From Roseobacter sp. HKCCD6576-2 (lineage in GTDB: Bacteria > Pseudomonadota > Alphaproteobacteria > Rhodobacterales > Rhodobacteraceae), in contig NZ_WVNW01000012.1 in the NCBI RefSeq assembly GCF_013179285.1, forward strand, positions 1 to 35,360: 35,360 bases of DNA, written 5' to 3'. Shown here in pieces: positions 7,453 through 31,090 of this stretch; within the stretch, counting starts at the first letter, position 1; every line of letters starts with the position of its first letter. The position numbers and the translations under genes were made by a program. The notes under the pieces were generated by a model. The model was given only the letters and a program-made list of their open reading frames with translations. It made no database searches and was not told where the DNA came from.

Positions 7453-8013
7453 GTGGCTGGGCTGGGGAGGCACGACGATCGGCTTCTAGATGCCCTAGAG
7501 GAGATAGGCCGGACACCTTACGAAGGGGTGATGTGGCGCGTTGTTCGCGCTGTTGATGATCGCTCGCCTCTAGATGGGTCCCGTGGTGCAGGGCGCTGGA
7601 ATCCCAATAGTCTATCTGTGCTGTATGGCGCACAGGAACCCGACGGCGCTTTGGCTGAGATTCATCACCATTTGAGCCTGGGACAGCCGGTGTTTCCGTC
7701 GCGAATGCAGCACAATCTATTCGAACTTCAAGTCGACGTCGGTGAGACGCTCAACTTCGCCGACATGAATGCGCTTGCCAAGCTAGGGGTAGAAACTGAG
7801 CGCTATCGCGAGATGCTTTATGGCCGTTCCCAAGCAATTGCAGCTGCAGCCGCATACATGGGATTCCATGGCATCATCGCGCCTTCTGCGCGCTGGAGAT
7901 GCCACAACGTGATCCTCTTCCTCGATCAAATCGAGGACATCGATGAAGCGATCAAGCAAGTAAGTTCGGAACCCGTTGACTGGATGGAATGGCGTGCGCG
8001 ACACGCAGAATGA
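7453..8013 (+). CDS. RES-domain toxin
   Basis: The 186-aa product shows the RES landmarks in order: the strand MWRVV with R29, GAGRWN with R48, VLYGAQEPDGALAEI with Y58 and E69, and a late serine in IIAPSARW (S144). RES toxins attack NAD+ or ADP-ribosylate targets and stop growth when the antitoxin is lost. All three family-naming residue types (Arg, Glu, Ser) are present, so it looks active. The GTG at 7453 sits 1 nt after the antitoxin stop, as in tightly coupled operons; an ATG start is absent nearby. Length is within the usual range. It ends 121 nt before the OLD-family gene, so this stretch resembles a defence or stability island. Confidence 0.9.
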   Translation: MAGLGRHDDRLLDALEEIGRTPYEGVMWRVVRAVDDRSPLDGSRGAGRWNPNSLSVLYGAQEPDGALAEIHHHLSLGQPVFPSRMQHNLFELQVDVGETLNFADMNALAKLGVETERYREMLYGRSQAIAAAAAYMGFHGIIAPSARWRCHNVILFLDQIEDIDEAIKQVSSEPVDWMEWRARHAE

Positions 8014-8134: not shown

Positions 8135-9643
8135 ATGCAGATTTCGCGAATAAGAATTGAGAACTTCAGGAATTTCTCGAAACTTGATGTTAGCGTCGGC
8201 AGTAATGTTGTGGTTGTCGGCGAAAACCGCGTCGGGAAGAGCAACCTGCTGTTCGCTCTACGGCTCATATTCGATCCGGCAATGCCGGACAGTGCGCGGC
8301 AGCTAGGCCTTTCTGATTTTTGGGACGGGCTCGCAGATCGTACCAAGGACGACAAGATCGTCGTGAGCGTCGAGATCAAGGAATTCGACAAAGACGAAGA
8401 TGTGCTGGCACTTCTTACCGACTTTCGGCTCGACGACGATCCCAACAACGTTCGGCTAACCTATGAGTTGCGTCCGGTTCCAGACCTGGAGGACGATCCT
8501 GCGTCAGCCGATGACTATGAATTCATCTGTTACGGGGGTGAAAGCGAGGCCAAGCGTTTTGGTCATAGCATCCGTCGCAGATTAACGATGGACCTGCTGC
8601 CCGCGTTGAGAGATGCCGAAGGCGATCTGTCGGCGTGGCGGCGCTCCCCGCTTCGTCCCTTGATCGAAGAGGCCTTCCGCGAGATCGAGAAAGAAGACCT
8701 TGAAGAGATAAGCGACGCGATTGAAGAGGCGACCGAAAAGATCACCGAGTTTCCTGAGGTCAGCGAACTGGAAGATCGCATTGCCAAACTTTTCGCAGAG
8801 ATGAGCGGCCCGAAACAGGACATCAAGCCGACCTTGGGATTTACCCCAACTGACGCCACAAGACTCTATCGTTCCGTCCGCCTGTTGATCGATGAAGGTG
8901 GGCGCGGGATCAGCGATGCCAGTCTTGGATCGGCCAACCTGGTGTTTTTGAGTTTGAAGACTTTGGAAATAAGGCGACTGATCGAAGAAAACCACCGGGA
9001 TCATACGCTTCTCGCTATCGAAGAACCGGAAGCGCATCTTCACCCACATTTGCAGCGGTCGGTCTATCGCCACGTGTTCGAGGGCGGGAACGACAGCCCT
9101 CTTTCGGTATTGCTCACGACGCACTCGCCCCACATTGCGAGCGTTGCACCTTTGCGTTCGCTCGTGCTTCTGAAGGACGAAGGAGAAGATGGTACGTGCG
9201 GTTATGCAACGCAGGACATCGAACTCAGTGACGCGGAAGTAGATGACATCGCCCGCTACCTCGATGTCACGCGGGCCGAGATGTTGTTTTCGAGAGGCGT
9301 AATCCTGGTCGAAGGCGACGCCGAACGATTTCTGGTTCCAGCATTCGCTGAAACACTCAAGCAGCCGCTGGACAAGCTGGGCATCACAGTTTGCTCGGTG
9401 TCGGGCACTAATTTCAGGCCTGACGCACGCTTTCTTGGCGGGCTGGGAATCCCGTTTTCCATCATCACAGACTGGGACCCGATAAAGGACAAGAAGCCAC
9501 TCGGCTTCAATCGTTCGCTCAACCTCGTAAAAGACATCTCCAAGCAGCAGAAGGTCAAAGAGCAGAAAAAGCTGATTGATGAGCTCAGGGAGTTCAAGGA
9601 CTACGATGAATTCGGTGCGCGCTGCGAAGCGTTCGGCGTGTAA
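8135..9643 (+). CDS. OLD-family ATPase with TOPRIM nuclease domain, 3'-truncated
   Basis: The 502-aa product begins with an ABC/SMC-like ATPase: Walker A GENRVGKS (residues 29-36), signature-like SLGSANLVFLSL, Walker B LLAIEEPEAHLHP, and the H-loop LLTTHSPHI. A TOPRIM nuclease domain follows, with EGDAE at 393-397 and the second acidic motif TDWD (D446, D448). These proteins cleave DNA and many act against phages. The frame stops at about residue 502, soon after the acidic motif, where relatives usually continue for another 50-150 residues. The next genes belong to a different cassette on the other strand, so the end was probably cut off. No UvrD-like GajB partner is present, so a Gabija system is not supported. 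Activity uncertain. Confidence 0.85.
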   Translation: MQISRIRIENFRNFSKLDVSVGSNVVVVGENRVGKSNLLFALRLIFDPAMPDSARQLGLSDFWDGLADRTKDDKIVVSVEIKEFDKDEDVLALLTDFRLDDDPNNVRLTYELRPVPDLEDDPASADDYEFICYGGESEAKRFGHSIRRRLTMDLLPALRDAEGDLSAWRRSPLRPLIEEAFREIEKEDLEEISDAIEEATEKITEFPEVSELEDRIAKLFAEMSGPKQDIKPTLGFTPTDATRLYRSVRLLIDEGGRGISDASLGSANLVFLSLKTLEIRRLIEENHRDHTLLAIEEPEAHLHPHLQRSVYRHVFEGGNDSPLSVLLTTHSPHIASVAPLRSLVLLKDEGEDGTCGYATQDIELSDAEVDDIARYLDVTRAEMLFSRGVILVEGDAERFLVPAFAETLKQPLDKLGITVCSVSGTNFRPDARFLGGLGIPFSIITDWDPIKDKKPLGFNRSLNLVKDISKQQKVKEQKKLIDELREFKDYDEFGARCEAFGV

Positions 9644-9689
9644 CCTGCTGGGTGAAGCAGCCGGTACATCCCATTACCGGACCTTGGCC

Positions 9690-9956
9690 CTAGACAAGGA
9701 TCGCATCGGCGCCGCTGCTGTTGGTCATGACGACCGAGACGGAAAACGGCTGCAGGGCCCGCTGGCAGTAATCCTCGACATAGAAGACCATGTTCCAGTT
9801 CGGCGGGATCACACGTTCGGCCCGCTGTTCAAGCTGCGCCATGTAGTTGAGGCAGGGCAGAACCCCGGTCGCCGTGAGGCGGACGAGATTGCTGCGCTGA
9901 ACCCAATGTGCGCGATAGCTGGCGCAGCCCAGGACCTTGGTGAAAGTGTCCGACAT
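9690..9956 (-). CDS. Unknown 88-aa protein, last gene of the SARP-flanked operon
   Basis: The product starts MSDTFTKVLGCASYRAHWVQ and has three cysteines (about positions 11, 35 and 63) and several aromatic residues. No family is recognised and no signal peptide is seen. The start is supported by AAAGGA about 6 nt before the ATG at 9956. It lies 39 nt downstream of the 108-aa gene and so is likely co-transcribed with it, the beta-barrel gene and the 94-aa gene. Its 3' end lies 46 nt from the truncated OLD gene and marks the left edge of the cassette. It could be a structural or substrate partner, but nothing in its sequence proves this. Confidence 0.65.
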   Translation of the reverse strand: MSDTFTKVLGCASYRAHWVQRSNLVRLTATGVLPCLNYMAQLEQRAERVIPPNWNMVFYVEDYCQRALQPFSVSVVMTNSSGADAILV

Positions 9957-9995
9957 GGCTTGTCCTTTCCTGACAAAGGCACCGCAGGGGCGCGG

Positions 9996-10322
9996 TTACG
10001 CGGGTTTGGCGACGGTGAGCGTCTTGATGACCCGCCCGCGCCACAACAGCGTGACGATCTCGATGGAGGGGTCGCCGAGCGGTTCTTCGTAGAAGGCCGC
10101 GTGGTACATGAAGGCCTGCGATCCCATCATGCCGGTGTTGCGCAATGTCAGATCGAGCGCCCGGAGACGTTCGGCCTGATTGTGCTCCTGCGACCGGCTG
10201 AGGACAGGCTGCTCATTGCTGCTCGGTGTTTCCACCGCGCCTTCGACCACCAGCCGCAGCCCCTCCGCATCGCGTTGGTCAAGTCGGGCGGCAAAGCCGC
10301 GAATCTTGGGCGGGATCGACAT
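9996..10322 (-). CDS. Unknown 108-aa protein in the beta-barrel operon
   Basis: The product begins MSIPPKIRGFAARLDQRDAE and ends with strand-like segments (SIEIVTLLWRGRVIKTLTVA), which suggests a small beta-rich domain. No motif is recognised. The ATG at 10322 has AAGGA about 8 nt upstream, and is preferred to an in-frame start at 10388 that would overlap the beta-barrel gene. The gap to that gene is 25 nt, so one transcript is likely. No secretion signal is seen, so it may stay in the cytoplasm. Confidence 0.65.
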   Translation of the reverse strand: MSIPPKIRGFAARLDQRDAEGLRLVVEGAVETPSSNEQPVLSRSQEHNQAERLRALDLTLRNTGMMGSQAFMYHAAFYEEPLGDPSIEIVTLLWRGRVIKTLTVAKPA

Positions 10323-10347
10323 GGGTAGGGTCCTTTTCGGCGCGGTT

Positions 10348-11466
10348 TCAGAAGGCGAGGCGCAAATTGACGGAAATCTGATCGACATCCTGCAAGCTGC
10401 GGCGGTCGGTTCCGTTGCGGTAGCGGATGTCGAGCGAGGTCCGGCCGCTATCGGACAGCGGGATCGCCAGCCCGGCCTCGTAGAGGATCGCGTCCTCGTC
10501 GTTGATCAGATCGTAGAAGGCATCGACACCCAGGCTGATCCGCGGCGCCCGCTCCCCGCGAAACGTGTAGCCAACCCCCAACTCGGTGCCGACCCATCCG
10601 TATTCGGTGCCGGTGACCAGACCGGAATTGCCGGCCTCGACCACATGGGCGTATTCTAGCCGCAGGTTTGCGTTCCAATCGAACACCCCCTGCTGCGGTG
10701 CATCGAAGTACCCGTTGAGCCGCGCGTCGAAATGATAGGGCGTCCAGATCGCATCCAGACCGTAGATCTCGGCGTCACCGTCGAAATCGGTCCGGTAGTA
10801 GGGCGAAATCGAAAGCTCCTGCAGGTTGATAAGGCCCCCGTAGAACTGCAGTTCGATCTCCACGCCGAACCGCAGGTCGCTGACAGTGGCCCGGTCGTTC
10901 GACCCGGTCCCGCGGAACGACAAGTAAGGGGCAATGACATAGCCCGACAGCGCACCGTCCGGCAGCGGGTCGGGCGAGCCGACATAGAAACAACGCTGTG
11001 CGGTTCCCGGCACCCAGAACAATGTGCCCGCGACCTGCCAGGAGGTGACGCCTGTGGCCCGGTTGTCGGTCACGCTGAACAGGGCACCGAGGTCGGACGG
11101 CTGCGCCAGATTGCTGTTGAGAAGCGAGACATTGAGCGATTCAGCCAATTGCACCGCGCTTGAGGTGCCGCAATTCGCGGCCAGTTGATCATAGACGTCC
11201 TGCACATCGAACACGTCCAGCTCGATACTGGGCTCGTCGGAGTCGAGAAACTGGATGGCGCGCGACAGCTCCTGACCCCGCAGGCTCGGAACAAGCGCCT
11301 GGAGCGCCCGGGCTTCGGCGCCGCGTTCGATGAGGCCGTCGCCATCAACGTCCAGCGCCGCAATCCGGGCGGAGACATCGGCCTGGCCGGGCAGGGCCGT
11401 TGCGGTGACGGCGAGGCAGGCGGCCCAGAGCGTCCCGGCTGCGCGAGGGAGAGACCGATTACGCAT
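10348..11466 (-). CDS. Predicted outer-membrane beta-barrel protein with an EF-hand-like loop
   Basis: The 372-aa product has a signal peptide (MRNRSLPRAAGTLWAACLAV, cleavage probably after ALPGQA). The first mature part holds one calcium-binding-like loop, DVDGDGLIE, then a region with two cysteines. From about residue 120 onward it alternates polar and hydrophobic residues in many predicted strands (ISPYYRTDFDGDAEIYGLDA, YGWVGTELGVGYTF, TSLDIRYRN) and ends in LRLAF with a terminal Phe, as outer-membrane barrels do. The ATG at 11466 has GGAGG about 7 nt upstream and overlaps the end of the 94-aa gene by 8 nt. It is probably a pore, receptor or anchor for the cassette product. The exact family is not recognised. 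Confidence 0.75.
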   Translation of the reverse strand: MRNRSLPRAAGTLWAACLAVTATALPGQADVSARIAALDVDGDGLIERGAEARALQALVPSLRGQELSRAIQFLDSDEPSIELDVFDVQDVYDQLAANCGTSSAVQLAESLNVSLLNSNLAQPSDLGALFSVTDNRATGVTSWQVAGTLFWVPGTAQRCFYVGSPDPLPDGALSGYVIAPYLSFRGTGSNDRATVSDLRFGVEIELQFYGGLINLQELSISPYYRTDFDGDAEIYGLDAIWTPYHFDARLNGYFDAPQQGVFDWNANLRLEYAHVVEAGNSGLVTGTEYGWVGTELGVGYTFRGERAPRISLGVDAFYDLINDEDAILYEAGLAIPLSDSGRTSLDIRYRNGTDRRSLQDVDQISVNLRLAF

Positions 11467-11743
11467 AGACCAGCCTCCAGCCACGCGACAGGTAATCGTC
11501 GTAGATCGCCCCCAGAAGGACCTCCACATTGGGTTTCCACGGCACCTCACCGGGCACCAGCGTCAGGCCGTCTTCCTTAAACCCTTCGGAGCTGTTGATC
11601 TCGTCGAGAAAGCCAATCAGCGTCTGGCGCCCTTTACCGATATGGGTCGAAACGCGGTGATGGTAGGAGACCCGCTTGCCGCTTACCTCATGCAGGCGGG
11701 CAAAAAGCCGGTCGCGAATGATTTTGATGTCTCTGGTTTTCAT
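11459..11743 (-). CDS. Unknown 94-aa protein, first gene of the beta-barrel operon
   Basis: The product starts MKTRDIKIIRDRLFARLHEV and appears helical at the N-terminus, with a C-terminal WRLVYA. No family is recognised. It is the first gene of the operon that reads away from the SARP gene, and its 3' end overlaps the next start by 8 nt. Its promoter region contains the paired TGTGA repeats at 11801-11822. No clear ribosome binding site precedes the ATG at 11743. Confidence 0.65.
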   Translation of the reverse strand: MKTRDIKIIRDRLFARLHEVSGKRVSYHHRVSTHIGKGRQTLIGFLDEINSSEGFKEDGLTLVPGEVPWKPNVEVLLGAIYDDYLSRGWRLVYA

Positions 11744-11800
11744 TGCCGGGGTCCCCGCAGTCGAATGTCCTCATTGCGTGACCCGAGCCTGATCGGTGGA

Positions 11801-11822
11801 TGTGAATTCGGTGTGATTTCCG
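11801..11822. promoter_or_regulatory. Tandem TGTGA repeats, putative SARP operator
   Basis: TGTGAATTCGG at 11801-11811 is followed directly by TGTGATTTCCG at 11812-11822. The two copies are 11 bp apart, one helical turn, as in known SARP sites. The pair lies between the divergent 94-aa gene (58 nt away) and the SARP gene. A matching pair, in the same orientation, lies upstream of the YcaO-like operon at 16927. Confidence 0.65.
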
Positions 11823-11906
11823 CCAAATGCCACACCAGCCCTGCCACAAGGCCCTGATGCACAAGGCACCGTTGCCAAAAAGGTGACCCTACGGCAGGGT
11901 TTAGCG

Positions 11907-13865
11907 ATGAACCTTTCGTTGCAATTCCTTCAATCCGCCTCGGAAATGCGGCTGCGAAAGGCCCGGGCGCTTCTATTCTTCCTGTTGCAGCCGCCCAATT
12001 GGACCCACCGAACAGAACTGATCGTCGATATTCTCTGGCGGCAGCCGGACATGCAGAAGGCCAATGCCTCCTTCCGTCAGACCGTCCGACATGTGCGCGG
12101 CGCCCTGTCCGCGATCCCGGAGGCTGAGGTTGAGACCGGCAGCGGGACGATCCAGCTTGCCGTGCCGGAGGGTTGGGCCCTCGAAACCGAGATCGCCGGT
12201 GGGCTGGCCGATGCCGAGACGTTGGAGGCGATGGCCGATGTGTTGCGGGGCTATCTGCAGCATATGGATCTGCTGCTCGGCCTCTCGGATGCATTTGACA
12301 GTTGGGTCGAGGTGACCCGGACGCAGCTGATTGCCGCCGCCCAGGCCGCACTGGCCGGGCATTTCGCGACGCCGCAGACCGAAACGGCCGCGCGGGCGGC
12401 GGAGCTAGCGATCACGCTTGAACCCCATGCGGAGGCAGCCGTGCGTTGTCTGATGCGCCACCATTGGGCCAATGGCGCCCCGACGCGCGCCATCGAAACC
12501 TATAACCGCCTCTACCGCAGCCTCGACGAAGCCTTCGACGCGGAACCGGAAGCGGCTACCGTCGAAATCCTTGCCGCGATCAAGCTGAACCCCGATGGCG
12601 GCGCGCAGGCCGCGATCCCGGCGGCGGCGCGCAAGATCCGGTTGCGTGTCGTGGCCGTCAGTGACCCGTCGCACACGCAGGCACCGGGTCTGGACAGCCT
12701 GCAGACCGTGCTCCTGTCCGACTTGCGCAACCGCCTGCAGAGTTTCCGCGAATGGCAGGTCGCCGAGGAGGACGCCGAGGAAGGCAGTGGCGAGGCTCTC
12801 ACGATCGCGCTGACACTGCAGCCGTCGGGCACCACCTACCGATTGGCGGTGGCCCTCCGGGCTCCTGACGAGGCGGCACCGGCCCGGCTGATCGAGATCG
12901 AAGATCCGCATGTGGGCTGGCTCGACAAGGTCCGCGGGCTGACCGTTGAGATAGCGAATGCGCTTAAACTTGTCGCCGCAGACCGGCATCGTCAGGACCT
13001 CGCCTCCGACCTCTACGACCGCTGGCTTGGCGCCTTGGCGCAGATCGGCACCTGGGACAAAGCCGAGGAAGAACGCGCCATCGCAACCTTGCGCACCATC
13101 ACGGCCGAGGCACCGGATTTCGCGCCCGCCCATGCCGAACTGGCCGGCATCTACAACGTGCGCCACGTGGTCTGGCCCGGCCTGCGCCTCAGCGAAGAGA
13201 TCAAGGCCACCGCACTGTCCCACGCGCTCAAGGCGATCTCACTCGATCAGCTGGACACCCGCGCGCACCGGGTCTTGGCCTGGTGTTACTGCCACAGCGG
13301 GGCGTTCGATCTGGCGGAGTTTCATTTCGATCAGTCCCTGACGCTCAATCCGCAGAATCCGCACAGCCTGGCCTCCGCAGCACTTGGCTTTGCCTTTTGT
13401 GACAATCCTGACCGCACGCGGGACCAGATTGATGTGGTCACCCGGCTGCTGCCCGCGATGCAGCCTTTTCACATCGTCTATCTCGCCGCCTCGAACTACC
13501 TGATCGGCGAGTTTCAGACGGCCGCTTCGCAAAGCGCGGAAGGGGCAGAATTGATGTCGACCGCTGGCGGATGGCAGAGCGCGGCGCTGGCAAAGCTCGG
13601 ACATCTGGACGAGGCCCGGGCCTGTTTTGAAGGCTATTGCGAGAAGATGGCCGCGCGGTGGTGCGGCCGGGATCCTGCCACGCCGCACCGGGTGCTCGAT
13701 TGGTTTGTCACCTGTTTCCCGCTGCGCCACGAAACCGTACGCGTCGACTTGCGCGGCACGCTCTCACAGCTTCTGCCTGAAGCGGCCGAGCCCGGCGCCT
13801 CAGTTGCACATATTGGTGATGTAGATGCCGACGGCGCGGTGGAAGGCCGTGACCGGATCCCTTAG
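11907..13865 (+). CDS. SARP-family transcriptional regulator with BTAD and TPR domains
   Basis: The 652-aa product has a short winged-helix DNA-binding region (about residues 1-88, with RKARALLFFLLQ, TELIVDILW and ANASFRQTVRHVR). A bacterial transcriptional activation domain follows (about 90-226, AIETYNRLYRSLDEAFDAEP near its end). A middle alpha/beta region comes next, then TPR-like helices at about 385-560 (FAPAHAELAGIYNVRHVV, AFDLAEFHFDQSLTLNPQNP). SARP proteins activate clustered metabolic genes by binding direct repeats near promoters. The ATG at 11907 keeps the usual hydrophobic first strand; a GTG at 11883 is an alternative. It stands between two minus-strand operons that both carry the same repeat pair. 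Its last 66 nt overlap the convergent 239-aa gene. Confidence 0.85.
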   Translation: MNLSLQFLQSASEMRLRKARALLFFLLQPPNWTHRTELIVDILWRQPDMQKANASFRQTVRHVRGALSAIPEAEVETGSGTIQLAVPEGWALETEIAGGLADAETLEAMADVLRGYLQHMDLLLGLSDAFDSWVEVTRTQLIAAAQAALAGHFATPQTETAARAAELAITLEPHAEAAVRCLMRHHWANGAPTRAIETYNRLYRSLDEAFDAEPEAATVEILAAIKLNPDGGAQAAIPAAARKIRLRVVAVSDPSHTQAPGLDSLQTVLLSDLRNRLQSFREWQVAEEDAEEGSGEALTIALTLQPSGTTYRLAVALRAPDEAAPARLIEIEDPHVGWLDKVRGLTVEIANALKLVAADRHRQDLASDLYDRWLGALAQIGTWDKAEEERAIATLRTITAEAPDFAPAHAELAGIYNVRHVVWPGLRLSEEIKATALSHALKAISLDQLDTRAHRVLAWCYCHSGAFDLAEFHFDQSLTLNPQNPHSLASAALGFAFCDNPDRTRDQIDVVTRLLPAMQPFHIVYLAASNYLIGEFQTAASQSAEGAELMSTAGGWQSAALAKLGHLDEARACFEGYCEKMAARWCGRDPATPHRVLDWFVTCFPLRHETVRVDLRGTLSQLLPEAAEPGASVAHIGDVDADGAVEGRDRIP

Positions 13866-14519
13866 GACGTCTACCCCCCTCTGTCTCGCCGGGTTGTCGG
13901 CCTGCTGCTCATAGGTCTCGAAACTGCCGATTAGGTCGTCAAACTGCACGATCAGCCGCTCTTTCAGGGCATCGGTTAGCGGCTGACCATCTTCACCGGT
14001 CATCTCCCCTATGGCACCTGAGATGAGTTTGCTGAAATGCGCCCGCATCAGGATCAAATCCAACTCATAGGTGAGGGGCGGCTCAAAGCCCGGTCCTTTT
14101 GGATCCTGCGACAGCAGGTCCTGCCGCCAGGCAAGCGTCTCGGCGACCGGCACGACAAGGGTCCGCGTGTTTCGGTCCGTATCGCCGGTCACCTTGACCC
14201 GCGTATCCCAGTCGAGCCGCACCTCCGTGGCCTCCAGAATGCGGTCGAGTTCCGGGTCATTGGGATCATGCCCGTCCTCGGGCACCACCATCAACGCTCC
14301 GTGGATCTTTCTGACCGCGTCCCTATACAGTGGGTCCGCCGGATGCAGCGGGCCGGTTTGCGACAGCTCCACAAGCACCTCCCCTATCAGTTCCACCGTC
14401 AGCGGCGTGCCGGTCACGCCCTCTTTTTCCGGGGTCTCGTCGATCGAGCCGTCATCATGCAGGTATTTGACCCGGCCGTTTTCGGCCTGACGGCCGACAA
14501 TGAGATAGCGGTCCAACAT
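13800..14519 (-). CDS. Unknown 239-aa protein after the haem peroxidase
   Basis: The product starts MLDRYLIVGRQAENGRVKYL. The N-terminal part is rich in acidic residues and the C-terminal 100 residues look helical (DLILMRAHFSKLISGAIGEM, AFHRAVGIYITNMCN). I recognise no family. The ATG at 14519 overlaps the stop of the peroxidase gene (TGATG), so it is translationally coupled and presumably works with the peroxidase or with the YcaO-like protein. Its 3' end overlaps the end of the SARP gene on the other strand by 66 nt. An upstream GTG at 14522 adds one residue. Confidence 0.7.
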   Translation of the reverse strand: MLDRYLIVGRQAENGRVKYLHDDGSIDETPEKEGVTGTPLTVELIGEVLVELSQTGPLHPADPLYRDAVRKIHGALMVVPEDGHDPNDPELDRILEATEVRLDWDTRVKVTGDTDRNTRTLVVPVAETLAWRQDLLSQDPKGPGFEPPLTYELDLILMRAHFSKLISGAIGEMTGEDGQPLTDALKERLIVQFDDLIGSFETYEQQADNPARQRGVDVLRDPVTAFHRAVGIYITNMCN

Positions 14520-15919
14520 CACGGGTACTCCTTTTCCCTTATGAGCGTGATCAATTCCATCATACTGTTCGGACGGCTCAGCGCCTCCGACGGGGAGGGC
14601 GCGTTGACCACCTTGCGAAGACGCGTCTCCATCATGTTCTGAAAAAGGAGGCTGCCTAACGGACCGAAACGTCCCCCCTGCCCGTAAAGCTGCGCCTCGA
14701 GCATCAGCGCAAAGAACAAGGGACCGTTAGCGATGCTTTCAGGCGTGACAACGACCTCAAGTTTCGCCTCCGCGTTACGCGCCATCGTTTTCGGGTCCAC
14801 CTGCTGCTGCGCGGCGGGCGGCAATTTCGCGACCGCCGTCTGGATTTCCTCGCGGTAGAGGCGCAGCGGACCGGTATCGGTCGCCGTCCCGAGATCAAGG
14901 TCGAGAACATGTTGGTGATCAATCAGAAGGTCTGGCGACATGCTGGCCGAGATCCCGGTTTTGCTTCCCCCTGCGCCATCGTCGAAGAACTTCGCCCAAT
15001 CGAGCGCCCACCCACCGGTTTTCCGCTCTTTGTCGCGCAGCCCTTTCAGCAGAAGATTGCTCAGAGACTGGGTTTCGGTGCCGAAATCGTAAGACGAGCG
15101 CGGCAGGGCGTGAAAGGTCCGAAACACCCCGTGCAGCAGTGTGGTTTCCTCTAGGTCTAGAGTCTGCGTCCGGGCGATCTCGACTACACCCGGATCGACG
15201 AAGCGCGGTAGAAAATCCGAGCGGATCAGGTGATGCCAGACATTCACAACATGCGCGCGCGCGCCTGCATAGACCGCGCCGGGCGACTGGGCGGATACCG
15301 CAGTCCCGCCGCCCATCAGCGCGCTATACTCCTCTGCAACAAGATTGTGGAACTTCATCCAGATGACCGCCAACCGGTGCAGCATCGTGGTGTCGCGATT
15401 GCGCGGGTCGTAAAGCGCCCGGACACTTGCATCCCCTTTGCCCAGGGTCTCCGACAGGATCCTTCTCGGGGTGATCCGAAACCGGAACGTGTCGGGGTCA
15501 AAAAGATGCGGCAGCATCGCCGGCCCTGCGCCGTAGAGGGTTTCCAGCACAAGCGGGTTTTCGATGAGGTTGTAGCGTTGCGCGGATTGCACGGCCGGCA
15601 CACCGTTCAACGGTCTGAGCTTGTCGCGCCCGGAATGAGGAACGTGATCAAGCGGCACGCTGTTACCGATGTCATGGGCGATCAACTGGCCGAAATAGGT
15701 ATAGCCCACCGGAATTTGCTGCTTTTCTGCCATGCAAAAATCGCGCCACGCGCGTGTCGCGACATACCAGGGCGGCGGATCGCGCGGCGCCTCGAACGCG
15801 AGGTTCAACCCATAGTTGGGGCGTTCCTGGACCCCCAACATCCTGTCCTCGTCCCACTTGGGGTTTAGAATGCCCTTCCAGTCGAGTCCCGTCGTCGTAT
15901 CTTCGGTGTCATCCGTCAT
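14519..15919 (-). CDS. Animal-type haem peroxidase family protein
   Basis: The 466-aa product carries the landmarks of the peroxidase-cyclooxygenase (animal haem peroxidase) superfamily. The distal haem motif YFGQLIAHDIG has H82 and D83; a catalytic arginine lies in DPRNRDTTMLHRL (R173, with Asp176 where many relatives have Glu); a helix follows with KFHNLVAEE; and the proximal histidine H270 lies in GVFRTFHALPRSSYDF. Such enzymes use peroxide to oxidise halides, phenols or peptide side chains. There is no signal peptide, so it should act in the cytoplasm, which is unusual for defensive peroxidases and fits a biosynthetic role. The ATG at 15919 has a very strong GGAGG-rich ribosome binding site and overlaps the YcaO-like gene by 11 nt. 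Confidence 0.88.
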   Translation of the reverse strand: MTDDTEDTTTGLDWKGILNPKWDEDRMLGVQERPNYGLNLAFEAPRDPPPWYVATRAWRDFCMAEKQQIPVGYTYFGQLIAHDIGNSVPLDHVPHSGRDKLRPLNGVPAVQSAQRYNLIENPLVLETLYGAGPAMLPHLFDPDTFRFRITPRRILSETLGKGDASVRALYDPRNRDTTMLHRLAVIWMKFHNLVAEEYSALMGGGTAVSAQSPGAVYAGARAHVVNVWHHLIRSDFLPRFVDPGVVEIARTQTLDLEETTLLHGVFRTFHALPRSSYDFGTETQSLSNLLLKGLRDKERKTGGWALDWAKFFDDGAGGSKTGISASMSPDLLIDHQHVLDLDLGTATDTGPLRLYREEIQTAVAKLPPAAQQQVDPKTMARNAEAKLEVVVTPESIANGPLFFALMLEAQLYGQGGRFGPLGSLLFQNMMETRLRKVVNAPSPSEALSRPNSMMELITLIREKEYP

Positions 15920-16856
15920 CCTCTTCCTCCTCCTGTGATCCCGCCGGGCGCGTCATGAAGGGTCCGGCCAGGCCGCGGTCACGGCTGCGGTAGACCGCAT
16001 CCGGCAGGCGACAGGCCCACACGGCGCGGCCGTCTCCGATTGACAGATCGTCAAAGTTCACCGACGGTTCCGATCCGAGGTGATCAGGCATAGCGGCCTC
16101 CGGTTCGTCCGGCTCCCGCGGGTCACTCGGGTCGAGCAATCTCGGACAGTGCGTCTGGTACGCCTCGATCACTCGTTCCACGGGCCGCACATCCAGATCG
16201 GTGATTCCGGCGCGCGATCCGACGAGCCCTTGCAAATTCACTTCCATCAGCAGCATTTCACGGCAGGCATGGCGCGCCGCGTCGGCAACCGAGGTGGCGG
16301 CCCCGAACCCCAGGATCGGCTCCTGTCCCTGCCGGGTTTCGGATTTGCAGATCACAACTGCGATGTCCGCATCGTAGTCGAGCCGCCAGAACGCCGAGCG
16401 CCGAAGCAAATAGGCCCCCTGGCGCAGCCGCCGCAGCGTGAGCGCCAAACCGGTCTCCGAAACCCAGGTGTCGGGCAGCGTGCGGGCCGGGATGTCCCCT
16501 TGCCACCAATGGCAAATGGCGATTCGTTCATGGGCCTCCCAAAGCGCACGCCGCTTGGCACGTTCCGGCTCGGGGTCAGCCGCAACACCGTCAAACTCGC
16601 TGCTACTGCGCACCAGGCCGGGGGCGTTCGTGGCCGCAGCGACGGCCCGAAACTCCGCTGTTTCGCCAAGGCAGCGGCTCAGTGCCATCAGCCTGTCGCA
16701 CCCGAGTCCGGAAGCAATTGCGCCATTCGCGAGACGGGCCTGCAATATCGCAGCCCTCGGAGCGTACATCGAGCTAATCCAATGGTGTTCGAACCATGCC
16801 TGCATGAGTTCGCCGTCGCGCTCAGCGTCGTTCCATTCATCTTTTTCTGGTGTCAT
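15909..16856 (-). CDS. Compact YcaO-like protein
   Basis: The 315-aa product (from ATG 16856) shows YcaO landmarks in order: ALSRCLGETAEFRAVA (about residues 58-74, matching the first E-x2-E motif, with Phe where Arg is usual), RALWEAHERIAICHWW (about 103-118, matching ExxER and the aromatic pair), and ILGFGAATSVADAARHACRE (about 181-200, the Gly-rich segment and Ala-rich helix). YcaO enzymes use ATP to activate peptide amide bonds for azoline, thioamide or related changes. The spacing between the first two motifs is shorter than usual and some ATP residues differ, so it may be a divergent enzyme or a non-catalytic partner. It is the first gene of an operon with the haem peroxidase. A GTG at 16889 is an alternative start, but a TATGGT-like -10 lies just upstream of it. 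Confidence 0.6.
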   Translation of the reverse strand: MTPEKDEWNDAERDGELMQAWFEHHWISSMYAPRAAILQARLANGAIASGLGCDRLMALSRCLGETAEFRAVAAATNAPGLVRSSSEFDGVAADPEPERAKRRALWEAHERIAICHWWQGDIPARTLPDTWVSETGLALTLRRLRQGAYLLRRSAFWRLDYDADIAVVICKSETRQGQEPILGFGAATSVADAARHACREMLLMEVNLQGLVGSRAGITDLDVRPVERVIEAYQTHCPRLLDPSDPREPDEPEAAMPDHLGSEPSVNFDDLSIGDGRAVWACRLPDAVYRSRDRGLAGPFMTRPAGSQEEEEDDG

Positions 16857-16926
16857 GTCTCCGGCCCAAATCAATCCTTGAGTACGCACTGGACCATACC
16901 CGTTTCGCAGTGTTTTCGGGGAAACC

Positions 16927-16948
16927 TGTGATCTTGATGTGATTTCAC
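16927..16948. promoter_or_regulatory. Tandem TGTGA repeats before the YcaO-like operon
   Basis: TGTGATCTTGA at 16927-16937 is followed directly by TGTGATTTCAC at 16938-16948, again 11 bp apart and on the same strand as the pair at 11801. Nine bases of the second copy, TGTGATTTC, are identical between the two sites. On the transcribed (minus) strand a TATGGT-like -10 element follows about 30 nt downstream. This is the second putative SARP operator. Confidence 0.65.
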
Positions 16949-17262
16949 TATTTGCGGCTTCGTTTCTTTGCTGACGGCAAATTGTTCAGTCTACGAATAG
17001 ACAGGTTTTGTAGCCAAGCAACCGAGCAGCCAAGAATACGGTCGACAGGAGCTCAGAGCGAGCTTTTCCTGGGATTGATCAAAGATACTACTAGTTGTCA
17101 CTTACCCGCTCGCGCCAAACATGCTCGACAGTGAGGTTCAGTATTGACGGCCCAGAGCTGACATTCGTTGGAGAGAACCATGCCGCAGCGCAGCTTCCGG
17201 GAAGCGGACGTTGAGCATCGTTCCAAGGAACGAATACGCTCGGGTAACGATAACCGAGAATT
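16949..17262. other. Region without a convincing gene, right edge of the cassette
   Basis: Only short, motif-free frames cross this 314-nt stretch. It separates the YcaO-like operon promoter from the broken ATP-grasp-like fragment. No clear terminal repeat or attachment site was identified. Confidence 0.35.
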
Positions 17263-24337: not shown

Positions 24338-26053
24338 CTAGTGACCGTCTTTCGCAATTCGAATGTTCAGAAGAACTTGTCGCCTTTCTCCTCGCGCGAC
24401 GTCAATCGCCCTGGCGATAGCAGAGGGCAGCTCTTCGCCCTTGCTCACCGTCTCGGTGTAGGCGCGACTGGCTTCACCGGTTTTCGTGAAATCTGGGATC
24501 GGCGCAAGCGAGGTGAGTGGGACATCGTTGGACTTCGATGCGCGCCCGCCTTTGTAGAGACCGGAAACCGAGCGTCGAACAGCCCCCCATTCCTCGTTGT
24601 TTAGAACAAGGGTGATAACGGGTAGGTCGAGCGCTTCGCAGAGCTGATGGCATGCCGTTGGATTTGCGAACATGTAGCTGCCATCCCCCATCGTGGCAAA
24701 AACCAACCGATCCGGATCGGCGAGTTGGGCGCCCATGGCGGCAGGCAAGCCCCAGCCCAATCCGCCGGAATGAGGCTCTTGGATATAGCTTTGGAAGTCG
24801 TCCAACTGCAGCGGCGGCAGGGGACATCCGAGTTCGTGGATCACCGTTGCCTTTTGCCCTCGGACCGCCTCACCAAGACAATGGGACACCCACGCCTTGG
24901 TCATTGGTGAGCGGCAGCCCGCTTTGGCCTCGTCAGCAACGCGCTGACGTTCCGCGTCTGACGCAGACACAATCCGCTTTCGGCGGGCCTCAGTCGTGGC
25001 CGGGTCCAACGGCCCGTCTTCCACCGCCGAAATGAGCTCCAGAAGCGATTGCGCTGTATCGCCGCTTAACGTCACGTCCGAGCGGAAGGAGCGCATCGGC
25101 GAGGACCGCGCAAACAGGGGATCCGGGCCCAGGTGGATGATCTTGGCATCCGGGGCGGGGGAGGCGCGATCCGGCCACCAGGGCGCAAGCGCGTCAATCA
25201 CGAGCACAACATCGGCCGCCAACAAGAAATCGTCGGGGAACCAACCGATATGCATGTCGCTCGACATCGGAATTGAGATTTGGTTCGCCCAGTAGTGCGA
25301 GACCGGTATGGCGCGGGCTTCGACGAAGCTCGCCAGCGCGTCAAACGCGGCTTTTGTCCCGACACCGCGCTGGGCGATGATCAGGGGACGTTCTGCAGTG
25401 GCCAGCAACTCCGCCGCTTGGGCCAGATCTTCGCGCGCTGGAGCGGTTCGCGCCGCTTGCAGCTTAGACGCCTCTTCCAATCCGTCTGCCGGACAGGGGT
25501 CACAGAGCACTTCTCTGGGAAGACTCAGGTATACCGGCCCCTTCGGCGTGGAGTTCGCAATCGACCAACCCCGATCAAGAACATCCGAGACCTGATCGGG
25601 AAACCGAAGCTCGTAGTCCCATTTGCACGCCTCACGCACCAAGGCGGTCTGGTCGTACATTTCCTGGCCCCATCCAATGGGCACCGTTCGGGCCCCAAAC
25701 CTTCCACCCTCGGCGACCGGTGTCCGGCCTGACATCACGAACATCGGGATCTGGTCGCAGGCCGCGTTGATTACACCTGTGGCGCCGTTCGACAGCCCCA
25801 CGTTCGTATGCAGCATCACCGCCTGCGCGCGACCCGAGATCTGATAGAAGCCGTGCGCCATACCGACCGCGACATGTTCGTGGGGCACGGTGATCGCCTG
25901 CGGCAGGTCGATCCCCTTGTCGCGCGCTTCGATCAGCCCTTCGATGATCGGTGGAAAGTCCGTTCCCGAATTGGCGAAGACATACTCGACCCCCAGCGCC
26001 TTCAGCTTTCCGAAGAGCGCGCCGCCGGCGGTGACTGAGCTTTGTTCCTTCAT
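24338..26053 (-). CDS. Thiamine-pyrophosphate-dependent decarboxylase-like enzyme
   Basis: The 571-aa product has the three-domain layout of the acetolactate synthase/benzoylformate decarboxylase family: an N-terminal Pyr domain with the catalytic Glu in VPHEHVAVGMAHGF (E59), a middle Rossmann-like domain (about 195-330), and a PP domain with MGDGSYMFANPTACHQLCEA to LNNEEW (about 454-488), the GDG-x25-30-NN TPP site. Such enzymes decarboxylate 2-oxo acids or join aldehydes. The ATG at 26053 lies 10 nt after the aldehyde dehydrogenase stop and has GAGG upstream; the frame's upstream extension to 26215 would overlap that gene. As the last gene of the operon, it may produce the aldehyde oxidised by the preceding enzyme. 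The substrate is unknown. Confidence 0.85.
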   Translation of the reverse strand: MKEQSSVTAGGALFGKLKALGVEYVFANSGTDFPPIIEGLIEARDKGIDLPQAITVPHEHVAVGMAHGFYQISGRAQAVMLHTNVGLSNGATGVINAACDQIPMFVMSGRTPVAEGGRFGARTVPIGWGQEMYDQTALVREACKWDYELRFPDQVSDVLDRGWSIANSTPKGPVYLSLPREVLCDPCPADGLEEASKLQAARTAPAREDLAQAAELLATAERPLIIAQRGVGTKAAFDALASFVEARAIPVSHYWANQISIPMSSDMHIGWFPDDFLLAADVVLVIDALAPWWPDRASPAPDAKIIHLGPDPLFARSSPMRSFRSDVTLSGDTAQSLLELISAVEDGPLDPATTEARRKRIVSASDAERQRVADEAKAGCRSPMTKAWVSHCLGEAVRGQKATVIHELGCPLPPLQLDDFQSYIQEPHSGGLGWGLPAAMGAQLADPDRLVFATMGDGSYMFANPTACHQLCEALDLPVITLVLNNEEWGAVRRSVSGLYKGGRASKSNDVPLTSLAPIPDFTKTGEASRAYTETVSKGEELPSAIARAIDVARGERRQVLLNIRIAKDGH

Positions 26054-26063
26054 GACATGCGCC

Positions 26064-27521
26064 TCAGATCGGATAGGTCTGATTTGGGTCTTCGATGGTG
26101 ATCCAGCGAAGCTCGGTGAACTCATCGATACCGGCGGTTCCCCCAAACCGGCCGTAACCGCTCGCCTTGGTGCCCCCGAACGGCACTTGGGCCTCGGCCC
26201 CAACGGTCGGACCATTGATATGCGCGATCCCAGTGGTCAGTCGTTTGGCGACCTCCATCCCGCAACCGATGTCCTTCGTAAAGATGGCGCAGCTCAGCCC
26301 ATATTCGGTGTCGTTGGCGATCTCGATGGCGTGGTCTTCGTCCTTGGCCCGAACCAGCGCGGCGACCGGGCCAAATGTCTCCTCCCCGTAGATCGCCATA
26401 TCGGACGTCACTCCGACGACAACAGTGGCGGGCATGATGGTCCCATCAAGCGGTACGCCACCGCCGATCGTGCTCGCCCCTTTTCCGACAGCGTCGCTGA
26501 TCAGCCGATCGACGTGATCGATGGTGTCGCGGTCCACCACCGATGCGAGGTTCTGTTCGTCCGCCGGTACGCCAACAGAAAGAGTTGCGATCCGTGCGCG
26601 CAGGGCTGTCTCAAACGCATCTGCAACCGCATCGACGACAATGATCTTCTCCGTCGACATGCAGATTTGGCCCTGATTCATGAACGCCCCGAAGGCAGCT
26701 GCGCGGGCGGCGGCCTCGATATCCGCATCTTCGAGCACCAGCATCGGGTTCTTCCCGCCCAGTTCCAGAAGGCAGGGTTTGAGGTGTTTCGTGGCGCGCG
26801 CGGCGATGATCTGGCCGACGCGGGTTGAGCCGGTGAAGTTGATGCGGCGCGTCAGCGGGTGGTCGATAAGCGTATTGACGACCTCGGGCGCGTCACCGGC
26901 CGAATGTGTGATGATGTTCAAGACCCCGGGGGGCAGACCGCCATCTGCCATGCAGTCTCCGATCAAGCGATGCAGGCCCGGGCATTTCTCTGAGGCCTTC
27001 ATCACGACCGTGTTTCCGCAGGCAAGCGGCATCGCAAATGACCAAACCCCTAGAACTATGGGCGCATTCCACGGCGCCATCCCGACAAGGACGCCAACGG
27101 GTTGGCGATGGGCCATCGAAAGCATGCCCGGCTTGCTTGATGGGATGATCTCTCCCTTTATCTGGGTGGTCATGGCCGCCGCCTCACGGAGGAAGCTCGC
27201 CGCGAGTTTGACGTTGTTTCGGTACCACAGCAGCGTGCTGGCGGTCTCGGCGATGCCAAGGGTTACGAACTCATCAACCCGCGCTTCCAACGCATCCGCG
27301 CAGCTGTTCAATACCTTGCGTTTCTCTTCGGGACTGGTCGATGACCAGGTGACAAAGGCGTTTTGCGCCGCCAGAACCGCCCGATCGACGTCGGCGGATT
27401 TCGCGGCAGCGGCTACGGTGACCGCCTCGCCTGTAATCGGCGACCGCCGTTCAAAGGTTCCACCGTCAATGGCCGGTTCGCTCTTGTTGTTGATGTGCAG
27501 CGAGACCTCGAGAGGGGCCAT
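26064..27521 (-). CDS. Aldehyde dehydrogenase (aromatic-aldehyde type)
   Basis: The 485-aa product is a complete aldehyde dehydrogenase. It has the NAD-binding and catalytic landmarks: WNAPIVLGVWSFAMPLACGN (about 150-169), the GSTRVGQ motif (about 231-237), the general base in LLELGGKNP (E253), and the nucleophile in NQGQICMSTEK (C287), with the usual 34-residue spacing. EETFGPVA and the C-terminal PFGGTKASGYGR are also present. The closest remembered types are vanillin and salicylaldehyde dehydrogenases. The product is the acid of whatever aldehyde the TPP enzyme releases. It starts on the last base of the sulfatase gene (TGATGG context near 27521), so the genes are coupled. Confidence 0.92.
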   Translation of the reverse strand: MAPLEVSLHINNKSEPAIDGGTFERRSPITGEAVTVAAAAKSADVDRAVLAAQNAFVTWSSTSPEEKRKVLNSCADALEARVDEFVTLGIAETASTLLWYRNNVKLAASFLREAAAMTTQIKGEIIPSSKPGMLSMAHRQPVGVLVGMAPWNAPIVLGVWSFAMPLACGNTVVMKASEKCPGLHRLIGDCMADGGLPPGVLNIITHSAGDAPEVVNTLIDHPLTRRINFTGSTRVGQIIAARATKHLKPCLLELGGKNPMLVLEDADIEAAARAAAFGAFMNQGQICMSTEKIIVVDAVADAFETALRARIATLSVGVPADEQNLASVVDRDTIDHVDRLISDAVGKGASTIGGGVPLDGTIMPATVVVGVTSDMAIYGEETFGPVAALVRAKDEDHAIEIANDTEYGLSCAIFTKDIGCGMEVAKRLTTGIAHINGPTVGAEAQVPFGGTKASGYGRFGGTAGIDEFTELRWITIEDPNQTYPI

Positions 27522-29089
27522 CAGGCGTACCTCAATGGTCGGGGGCCGGGCTCGATGGCGTCAAGCATCGCCTGATTCAACTGAAACAGAAGGTCTGACT
27601 TCACCCTGGAAGATGATGGATCGTCCCAGAGATTGTGGGTTTCGTTCGGGTCGGCGGCGATGTCGTAGAGTTCGCCATCCTCGGCGCCCTTGTAGATCGA
27701 AAGACGATGGGTTTCGGTTACAAGGCTCCGGATATTCGGGATCTTTGAGAAGCCCGGGTAGATCTTGTTTTCCTCATGCTCGATCAACACGCACTCGCGG
27801 GGCGAGGCTGTCTGGTCGATTTGCGGCAGGAACGACCGCCCCTGCATCCCAAAGTACGGCAGGACACCGCAGCGTTCGAGGATCGTCGGTCCGATATCCA
27901 CCGAGGCCGCCAAACCCTTTGCCGTCGATGGGCCCTCTTGCGTCGGATCGACCCAGATGAACGGGACCTTGTTCACCGAGACATGCGGGAATGGCCCCTT
28001 CAGCAACAGTGAGAATGCACCCATGTAGTCGCCGTGGTCGGAGTTGAAGACGATGATGGTGTTGTCGGCCTGACCGCTGTCTTGCAGCGCCTTTAGGATT
28101 TCCCCAATGGCATCGTCGATCATGGTGATCATACCCGCGGTCAGGGCCATGGCTTCCTGGATCTGGCGCTTGGGGGCCATGAAGGCCTGTTGCTGGTTCG
28201 CCGGGACCACGCCTTGCTTTAGCAAATCTCTCCAAGCCTTCACCTGCTTTGGCGGGTTTTTGTGTGCCTCGAACGGCAGATCGACGGCGAAGTCATCGGG
28301 ATCGTACATGTCCCAGTACTTGCCGGGCGGGGTAAACGGATGATGCGGGTCCGGAAAGGACACGAAGGCGAAGAAGGGCTGGTCATCGCCGCTTCTGTCA
28401 CCGAGATATCGCTTCGCCTGATCCCGAATATAGGACGTCGGGTACAGCTCCTCGGGGATGCCGGTGCGAAACGCTTGGGGGTTGGTATAGGTATGGGGCA
28501 ACTGGTTTGAGTGGTCCCGCAAGCTGGCCCACTCATTGGTTTGTTGCCTGAGCCACTGAAGGTAATGGCCCCCACATTGGTCGCTGTGGTTGGTCACCAT
28601 CCGGACATGGTCGAACCCATAATAGGGCATCGCGACCCCGTAAGCAGACGGGTCCTCATAGGTTGATGGCTGCTCGGCCGTGTAGACCGCTCCATTGGCC
28701 TTTCTTGCCTCGGGAATGCTCTCGTTCACATCGAGGGTCCGGCCCTCGAGGTCAATCGGTCTGTCTGTGAAGGGCTGGAGATGGCTCTTTCCGATGGAGG
28801 CCGTGTGGTATCCGGCGTCTCTCAGAAGATCGACAAACGTGTTCGCGTCCTCCGGCAGCGGCAACCCGTTGTGCCGCAGCCCGTTCACCGAGGGGTACCG
28901 CCCGGTGAAGATCGCGCCGCGATTTGGCATGCACACGGGCGTTGTCACGTAGAAGTTCGTGAACCGCGTGCCGCGTGCGGCAAGTCCGTCGATGTTCGGG
29001 GTCCGCACAACCGGATGTCCCGCATAGCCCAGCCAGTCGGCGCGATGCTGGTCCGTCATGAAGTAGAGGATGTTGGGGCGTTTGCTCAT
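27521..29089 (-). CDS. Sulfatase-family hydrolase (CxPxR type)
   Basis: The 522-aa product has the alkaline-phosphatase-fold sulfatase layout. The first metal motif is ILYFMTDQHRADWLGYAG (D13). The formylglycine signature is PVCMPNRGAIFTGRYPS, with C53 and R57. PFFAFVSFPDPHHPF follows, and the late metal motif FNSDHGDYMG. The CxPxR form serves arylsulfatases, choline sulfatases and phosphonate monoester hydrolases alike, so the exact ester is open. Cys53 would need conversion to formylglycine by an enzyme not seen here. The ATG at 29089 overlaps the TRAP permease stop (ATGA). There is no signal peptide, so it should act in the cytoplasm on a substrate imported by the TRAP system. Confidence 0.9.
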   Translation of the reverse strand: MSKRPNILYFMTDQHRADWLGYAGHPVVRTPNIDGLAARGTRFTNFYVTTPVCMPNRGAIFTGRYPSVNGLRHNGLPLPEDANTFVDLLRDAGYHTASIGKSHLQPFTDRPIDLEGRTLDVNESIPEARKANGAVYTAEQPSTYEDPSAYGVAMPYYGFDHVRMVTNHSDQCGGHYLQWLRQQTNEWASLRDHSNQLPHTYTNPQAFRTGIPEELYPTSYIRDQAKRYLGDRSGDDQPFFAFVSFPDPHHPFTPPGKYWDMYDPDDFAVDLPFEAHKNPPKQVKAWRDLLKQGVVPANQQQAFMAPKRQIQEAMALTAGMITMIDDAIGEILKALQDSGQADNTIIVFNSDHGDYMGAFSLLLKGPFPHVSVNKVPFIWVDPTQEGPSTAKGLAASVDIGPTILERCGVLPYFGMQGRSFLPQIDQTASPRECVLIEHEENKIYPGFSKIPNIRSLVTETHRLSIYKGAEDGELYDIAADPNETHNLWDDPSSSRVKSDLLFQLNQAMLDAIEPGPRPLRYA

Positions 29090-31014: not shown

Positions 31015-31090
31015 GCGATGCACCTCTCGCTACGTGGTGTGACGGAGTGATCGAGTTGGGGGCACCGCAGCGCCCCCAAACTGAAACGGC

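Follow-up and report, generated by a model that had tools for sequence, protein, structure and literature searches.

Do a SARP-type regulator, a YcaO-like protein and an animal-type haem peroxidase that lie side by side in an alphaproteobacterial genome form a single unit, and on what would such a unit act? The question is raised by contig NZ_WVNW01000012.1 of Roseobacter sp. HKCCD6576-2 (assembly GCF_013179285.1), of which positions 1 to 35,360 were analysed; this whole stretch of 35,360 nucleotides is called the window below. YcaO enzymes and animal-type haem peroxidases are each well studied. A first-pass annotation, made from the sequence alone, had read the three genes, together with an operon on the other side of the regulator, as one candidate system. 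According to the analysis described here, the three genes do belong together, and they are accompanied by a gene for a protein of 239 amino acids (aa) that ends in a conserved, cysteine-containing tail. The reading we favour, with confidence somewhat above even, is a four-gene cassette for protein or peptide modification, in which the 239-aa protein would be the substrate, the YcaO and the peroxidase would act on its tail, and the SARP would be the fourth member.

All open reading frames (ORFs) lie at the positions described in the first-pass annotation, and Pfam confirms the identities it gave to the SARP-BTAD-TPR regulator, the YcaO-like protein and the haem peroxidase. The compact YcaO gene (15909..16889, minus strand) matches Pfam YcaO (PF02624) with an E-value of 8.4e-11 and a score of 42.2 bits against a gathering cut-off of 25.7; its real start is probably the Met at 16856, because a Met stands there in 45 of 50 aligned cassette YcaOs. 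The peroxidase gene (14519..15919, minus strand), which encodes a member of the peroxidase-cyclooxygenase superfamily, matches An_peroxidase (6.1e-6; 25.5 bits, cut-off 25), and no signal peptide is evident in its product by eye, as had been stated. The third minus-strand gene (13800..14519) encodes the 239-aa protein, the proposed substrate or, alternatively, carrier. No Pfam or NCBIfam family scores above cut-off for it, which agrees with its first description as an unknown; its role as the fourth core gene had been overlooked. The 660-aa regulator (11883..13865, plus strand) contains a BTAD domain (Pfam 3.5e-7) and TPRs. The tight packing with overlapping starts is equally real: the YcaO ORF shares 11 bases with the peroxidase ORF, the sequence TGATG is common to the peroxidase stop and the start of the 239-aa gene, and the 239-aa and SARP genes, in tail-to-tail orientation, overlap at their ends. 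The YcaO, the peroxidase and the 239-aa protein have a single match each within their own genome.

Conservation was assessed in an order-level sample of 292 genomes, searched with the YcaO, the peroxidase and the 239-aa protein of the window. The YcaO was matched in 11 of these genomes, its own included, and in each of the other 10 a SARP, a YcaO and a haem peroxidase lie close together. The possibility that the homologues occur apart from each other, which the first-pass annotation had named as grounds for abandoning its proposal, was tested in this way, and the trio stood: 10 of 10 YcaO homologues are inside it. The 239-aa protein was matched in 4 other genomes of the order, all of them among these 10. 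The peroxidase matches 24 other genomes (E ≤ 0.001), in 6 of which it lies within the cassette; among the 18 peroxidase-only genomes it is unlinked to the cassette in all 3 that were examined (L043-L045), and 4 of the 10 cassette genomes have a cassette peroxidase that lies too far from the query to be recovered at this threshold. The sample includes one other member of the genus, in which none of the three proteins has a match, and the cassette is therefore regarded as an accessory unit.

A wider scan of named genomes was made with five window-type peroxidases as queries, and the best 80 of 404 relatives, added to 13 loci from the order sample, gave 93 profiled loci (denoted by L numbers). 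According to three-protein profiles, a peroxidase and a SARP occur together at E < 1e-30 in 59 of the 93; after removal of 4 same-genome duplicates, 55 distinct loci remain, nearly all of them with a YcaO. These loci and the 10 of 10 genomes of the order bear out the claim that the three proteins form a unit, and the core genes are found together far more often than chance would allow. A YcaO call is impossible in L073 (contig end), and L117 and L130 have a partial YcaO, at the contig end. A single 818-aa ORF of L072 (Shimia sp. CNT1-13L.2) combines YcaO and peroxidase; its Pfam peroxidase match is below cut-off, and its match to the cassette peroxidase profile reaches 2e-98. As for the search for the same gene order in other genomes, which had been suggested at the outset, the set recurs but the order is not fixed. 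Among the 48 loci with all three genes (L072, L104, L122, L130, four duplicates, L073, L091 and L117 left out), five arrangements are found, in 29, 11, 4, 2 and 2 loci, respectively; the gene set stays constant although the order changes. The wider-scan cassette loci have alphaproteobacterial hosts. Cassette hosts belong to Paracoccaceae, Roseobacteraceae, Stappiaceae, Thalassobaculaceae, Kiloniellaceae, Acetobacteraceae and Dongiaceae, among others, and the laboratory organism Paracoccus denitrificans also carries the cassette (L067).

Regarding the fourth gene, each cassette examined encodes, near the peroxidase and the SARP, a protein of some 120-280 aa that has a cysteine close to its C-terminus (its ORF starts are uncertain, and the L057 and L073 ORFs read longer). 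This Cys-tail protein was identified by homology in 46 loci and by place and tail in 12. In 44 loci, the window included, clustering by BLAST was enough to identify it (clusters of 27 and 17), and the proteins of L057 and L073 were identified by BLAST to the 239-aa protein of the window; in L037-L041, L087, L104, L117, L122 and L130 it was picked by place and tail. L163 and L164 were retrieved with the profile of a family of small tail proteins, and because the match in L163 runs through its tail, the Cys of L163 is partly selected, its cassette not. The C-terminal Cys is conserved in 58 of 58 loci and stands second from the end everywhere except in L122 (fourth) and L163 (third). It occupies position -2 in 48 of 48 members of the two BLAST clusters and in 47 of the 48 tail proteins of alignments A6 and A7. 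As a background value, other ORFs of 100 aa or more in the neighbourhood of cassettes were counted after exclusion of duplicates and of the core genes of the window; a Cys stands at -2 in 7 of 517, and 3 of the 7 are copies of one family.

In the window this tail reads RAVGIYITNMC-N; the codons of the conserved tail RAVGIYITNMCN of the 239-aa protein lie at 13803..13838 on the minus strand, with the Cys codon at 13806-13808. The consensus is RAVGIYxTNMC-x in the window group and R[VI][GA]DYTxxxC-x in most of the distant group; Tyr and Cys are shared by L039 and L041, and the Cys alone is common to L037, L038 and L040. Identity to the first sequence ranges from 24 to 50% in the 239-aa family and from 15 to 95% in the small family, and among twelve-residue windows the tail ranks 3rd of 229 and 1st of 121 in conservation, respectively. 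Since the same Cys is kept in a tail encoded beside a YcaO and a haem peroxidase, the tail is the likely chemical target. When 190 genomes of the class were searched with the small-substrate profile, 2 matched, both inside full cassettes; none of 200 genomes of the phylum matched, in a search run without a positive control, and a range wider than Alphaproteobacteria was not adopted.

AlphaFold2 models of the 239-aa protein and of the small family have pLDDT (predicted local distance difference test) values of 84.6 and 85.1, respectively. The 239-aa fold could be assigned to no known structure, with no PDB match in Foldseek at E ≤ 0.001, and an NHLP fold was rejected as proven for the small family, for which Foldseek gives 3 matches at E ≤ 10, none of them at E ≤ 0.001 and none of them NHLP. 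At the level of profiles, the small family (19 sequences) faintly resembles a set of 34 nitrile-hydratase-alpha/NHLP proteins (hhalign probability 70.6%, P 3.9e-5, score 29.0); 8 reversed or shuffled controls reach probabilities of 0.0-0.9% and scores up to 13.6. The 239-aa family is in turn connected with the small family by a weak profile link (P 2.6e-4 and 0.0037 in two comparisons). The small-type members do not reach the cut-off of the TIGR03793 model, and the NCBIfam scan does not list this model for the 239-aa protein. The NHLP kinship of the tail protein is only a lead, because there is no NHLP match in Foldseek and the profile similarity is weak.

The regulator probably switches the cassette on. 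BTAD is above the Pfam cut-off in the window regulator and in five other cassette regulators; Trans_reg_C, the N-terminal OmpR-type winged helix, is below cut-off in L124 (2.7e-4) and L083 (0.005) and unreported in the window SARP. TPR domains bind C-terminal peptides, which points to another possible role for the tail: it could be a docking signal for the TPR domain of the regulator, with the 239-aa protein serving as a sensor or anti-activator that reports the activity of the YcaO and the peroxidase. Such docking would suit a regulator that has TPR repeats, adjoins the tail protein and diverges in step with both enzymes (distance correlations over 49 loci: r 0.91 for YcaO-SARP and 0.95 for peroxidase-SARP). 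This correlation is, however, expected for any linked genes, and docking does not need a Cys, which is the very residue that never varies; we consider it quite improbable. A separate feature was seen in L037, whose cassette SARP (10292-12946) has an N-terminal adenylate/guanylate cyclase domain (Pfam 1e-12).

As for the haem peroxidase, PMC4420034 gives GQxxDHD, RxxE and His-Asn as the classical residues of the peroxidase-cyclooxygenase superfamily, and their roles are described there and in PMC3533774. This signature is not found in the cassette enzymes (n = 56). They all keep the distal Gln/His/Arg and the proximal His (56 of 56), but the haem-ester Asp of GQxxDHD is present in none of the 56 versus 34 of 35 unlinked relatives, and the second ester Glu in 3 of 56 versus, again, 34 of 35. 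The second ester position is Asp in 44 of the 56, a residue that could still form a haem link. The position of the proximal Asn, matched by sequence alignment and not by structure, is Asp in 48 of 56 cassette peroxidases and Asn in 32 of 35 unlinked relatives. L130 is left out of these counts; in the count that includes it, 54 of 55 lack the first ester Asp. In a quick tree of 92 rows, flagged for long branches, the linked peroxidases need 2 changes and the unlinked ones 3 (1 is possible for either), and the shuffled means are 28.6 and 28.2, respectively; conclusions on peroxidase ancestry from this tree were set aside.

These residues bear on the plainest explanation of the locus, an oxidative-stress or detoxification operon in which the peroxidase would remove H2O2, the other genes would be accessory and the shared neighbourhood would reflect transfer of an island. 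The patchy occurrence of the cassette in the order (11 of 292 genomes, its own included) and its variable flanks fit this explanation. It is nevertheless very improbable in view of a gene set kept through five gene orders and a fusion, of unlinked superfamily peroxidases that differ from those of the cassette at three haem positions, and of the conserved Cys in the tail.

The YcaO keeps the residues tested, which are Glu and Arg residues that we take to be nucleotide and Mg ligands from their roles in LynD and E. coli YcaO: E76, E79, E118 and R122 are present in 50 of 50 cassette YcaOs and E211 in 49 of 50 (L104, L122 and L130 left out; L073, L091 and L117 without a YcaO hit). The YcaOs of L083, L124 and L037 give full-length PF02624 matches (4.4e-51 to 3.2e-56). 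Enzymes of the TruD, LynD and MusD type make azolines, and the usual YcaO target is Cys, Ser or Thr. A profile of 11 YcaO homologues finds TruD (9.5e-34), LynD (1.2e-29) and MusD (8.5e-26), followed by two further YcaOs; the nearest solved YcaOs by profile are thus of the cyanobactin type, with LynD covered only from about residue 406. LynD is described as an azoline-forming enzyme in the available part of PMC12455567, and that of PMC4603692 places the cyanobactin-type D proteins together with those of NHLP precursors.

The tail protein is favoured as the substrate because its Cys is invariant, the nearest YcaOs make azolines and the small family has a faint NHLP likeness. In the mechanism we propose, the folded body of the 239-aa protein would present the short conserved C-terminal tail to both enzymes. 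The YcaO would consume ATP to activate the backbone amide that precedes the conserved Cys, with a thiazoline as the simplest product, and the peroxidase, using H2O2, would oxidise the same tail, for example by converting the thiazoline to a thiazole. Alternatively, the peroxidase could oxidise the Tyr that precedes the Cys by five residues and perhaps link this Tyr to the side of the Cys. Since the body varies but the tail is kept, the product is probably a single, fixed functional group and not a diversified antibiotic; it may be a cofactor or a signal, either protein-bound or released.

The same terminal Cys could have a different use. In DsrC/TusE a penultimate (near-terminal) Cys carries sulfur, and the Cys-tail protein, which is alike in having such a residue on its tail, might be a carrier whose terminal Cys acts as a swinging arm and bears a persulfide or thioester between the YcaO and the peroxidase, so that the end result would be a small molecule made or another protein modified. 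A conserved tail closed by a Cys and a variable last residue, a variable body and the lack of a protease as a general neighbour would all be expected of a carrier. The likeness to DsrC, however, does not extend to the sequence: the 239-aa protein has no DsrC match at E ≤ 0.1 in Pfam or NCBIfam, and none is listed in either database for 24 small-type members. Moreover, no sulfurtransferase is among the ten neighbour families looked up, and a pure carrier does not account for the Tyr and Gly/Asp that the tail also conserves. On these grounds we hold a carrier to be unlikely.

Modification of the tail has its own difficulties. L091 (Tistlia) has no YcaO within the stretch examined and other YcaOs elsewhere in its genome. 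L130 has the SARP, the Cys-tail protein and a partial YcaO, and its sole peroxidase, an ordinary one with GQFIDHD, is wrongly oriented, so the cassette peroxidase may be missing there. Identification of the tail protein is partly circular in 12 of the 58 loci, since the tail itself served as a criterion, and the Tyr at -7 is not universal (44 of 48 aligned tail proteins). The NHLP similarity of the small family spans only 37 columns; of 24 small-type members a single one matches TIGR03793 (E 0.018), and the rest are unlisted at E ≤ 10; the 239-aa family shows no likeness to the nitrile-hydratase-alpha/NHLP profile (hhalign P 0.039); and Foldseek finds an NHLP-like structure for neither AlphaFold2 model. 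No RRE or ThiF partner was found as a general neighbour by BLAST clustering of ORFs of at least 60 aa in 56 loci, a search that a small divergent one may escape. Clustering of ORFs in the 56 loci, with ten families looked up, likewise gave no protease or exporter as a general neighbour, and the release of a small product is therefore unsupported.

The same data bear on the exported product suggested by the first-pass annotation. Outside the core, the most widespread gene family is present in 13 of the 56 loci, and this part of the earlier proposal thus lacks support. That family contains an ABC ATPase; the ten families looked up include common proteins such as an ABC ATPase, a LysR regulator and a short-chain dehydrogenase. 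No short separate precursor peptide recurs besides the Cys-tail protein among ORFs of at least 40 aa in six distant cassettes, inspected by eye and not exhaustively.

The operon on the other side of the regulator, also on the minus strand, consists of genes for a 94-aa protein (11459..11743, the first gene), an outer-membrane barrel candidate with a DVDGDGLIE loop (10348..11466), a 108-aa protein (9996..10322) and an 88-aa ORF (9690..9956). The 94-aa protein and the barrel candidate have homologues in L052, L054 and L172, and the 108-aa protein in L052 (109 aa) and L172 (106 aa). Comparison with full-length homologues shows the 88-aa ORF to be a truncated member of a 181-190 aa family; the gene is present as annotated but is not a whole unknown of its own. 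In the barrel candidate the DVDGDGLIE loop is there and the N-terminus looks like a signal peptide by eye, but no Pfam or NCBIfam match was obtained, and the word "barrel" is backed by no analysis. All four genes adjoin the cassette in L052, two (the 94-aa and barrel homologues) in L054, and only the 88-aa family, at its full length of 181-190 aa, in L075-L079. The module is also present in genome G264 (L172, 6690-12883), where its fourth member has 181 aa and where a tyrosinase gene and a gene for a SARP-like TPR protein lie beside it, and partly in G111, and neither genome has a match to the window YcaO. The barrel operon is therefore a separate module that sometimes joins; on the same occurrences it was ruled out as part of the core unit, and the idea of a single regulon embracing both operons does not hold. 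In L172 the tyrosinase and the SARP-like TPR protein stand in place of the YcaO and the peroxidase, and because of these neighbours the barrel module may accompany other oxidising enzymes too. In L173 the 108-aa homologue and the 181-aa family form one ORF.

At the edge of the cassette, no downstream frame continues the 88-aa gene within 9600-9960 of the window. Its end adjoins an OLD-like AAA/TOPRIM gene (8135-9643, plus strand), with a RES-domain gene (7453-8013, plus strand) beyond, and the truncation beside the OLD-like gene suggests a recombination junction. Elsewhere in the window, 24338-31023 contains genes for a thiamine pyrophosphate enzyme, an aldehyde dehydrogenase, a sulfatase and a TRAP transporter DctM subunit, which probably serve ordinary catabolism. 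In Paracoccus denitrificans (L067) a second, conventional-looking azole-type cluster directly adjoins the cassette (11980-17032), with a full-length YcaO (Pfam 9.1e-72) and, by eye, nitroreductase-, ThiF- and radical-SAM-like proteins.

Searches of an open-licence library found no paper pairing a YcaO with a haem peroxidase. The word "peroxidase" occurs 0 times in the main texts of the YcaO surveys PMC4603692 and PMC8120280 and of the NHLP/YcaO study PMC12455567. The available part of PMC8776678 concerns a Dyp-type peroxidase and an unrelated YcaO cluster, and the one paper found for YcaO with Paracoccus denitrificans, PMC7794033, is on lanthipeptides. With lactoperoxidase, myeloperoxidase and peroxidasin the cassette peroxidases share a sequence match, the distal Gln/His/Arg and the proximal His, and they differ from the peroxidase-cyclooxygenase superfamily at both ester residues and the proximal Asn; peroxidasin is a precedent for protein cross-linking (PMC5377774, available part). 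According to the available text of PMC2887384, NHLP precursors have a Gly-Gly cleavage site and a hypervariable core. Neither hallmark is typical of the tail proteins, of which 7 of 48 aligned have GG within the last 60 residues and in which the tail is among the most conserved parts.

In comparison with the TOMM azoline/azole class of ribosomally synthesised and post-translationally modified peptides (NHLP/cyanobactin-type), the cassette is alike in a YcaO nearest to TruD, LynD and MusD, in a partner that is structured, resembles a precursor and, in the small family, has a faint likeness to NHLP proteins, and in a heterocyclisable Cys in the C-terminal part. It differs in that no ThiF/RRE, flavin dehydrogenase or exporter was found as a general neighbour, in its conserved instead of hypervariable tail with GG in only the few members counted above, and in the haem peroxidase of the set. 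With the stand-alone YcaO systems (bottromycin; TfuA-YcaO thioamidation) it shares a YcaO for which no general C-protein neighbour was found; however, no methyltransferase/radical SAM set or further general partner was found among its neighbours, and its proposed substrate is much larger, bottromycin and TfuA-YcaO precursors being far smaller.

Pyrroloquinoline quinone (PQQ) and mycofactocin are redox cofactors derived from ribosomal precursor peptides. The cassette resembles their systems in conserved C-terminal residues on a ribosomal precursor and in a compact gene set, and differs from them in a core without radical SAM, where a YcaO and a haem peroxidase stand instead, and in that no dehydrogenase partner was identified. 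It is possible, though doubtful at present, that the product is a new peptide-derived redox group: a YcaO-made heterocycle on the terminal Cys, oxidised by the peroxidase, perhaps cross-linked to the Tyr, held on a folded carrier and controlled by the SARP. For such chemistry, to judge by the residues alone, the peroxidase would have lost both haem-ester residues and, in most cases, acquired a His-Asp pair on the proximal side.

What the cassette means for the two enzyme families follows from its composition. Cassette peroxidases, which retain the catalytic His and Arg without the haem-ester residues, are a natural experiment on the role of those links. The YcaO and the haem peroxidase, enzymes not known to work together, are paired here, and with a named partner, one proposed target Cys and a minimal gene set the cassette makes a possible new post-translational chemistry directly testable. 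If the redox group proved true, it would be a YcaO/peroxidase counterpart of PQQ or mycofactocin across Alphaproteobacteria.

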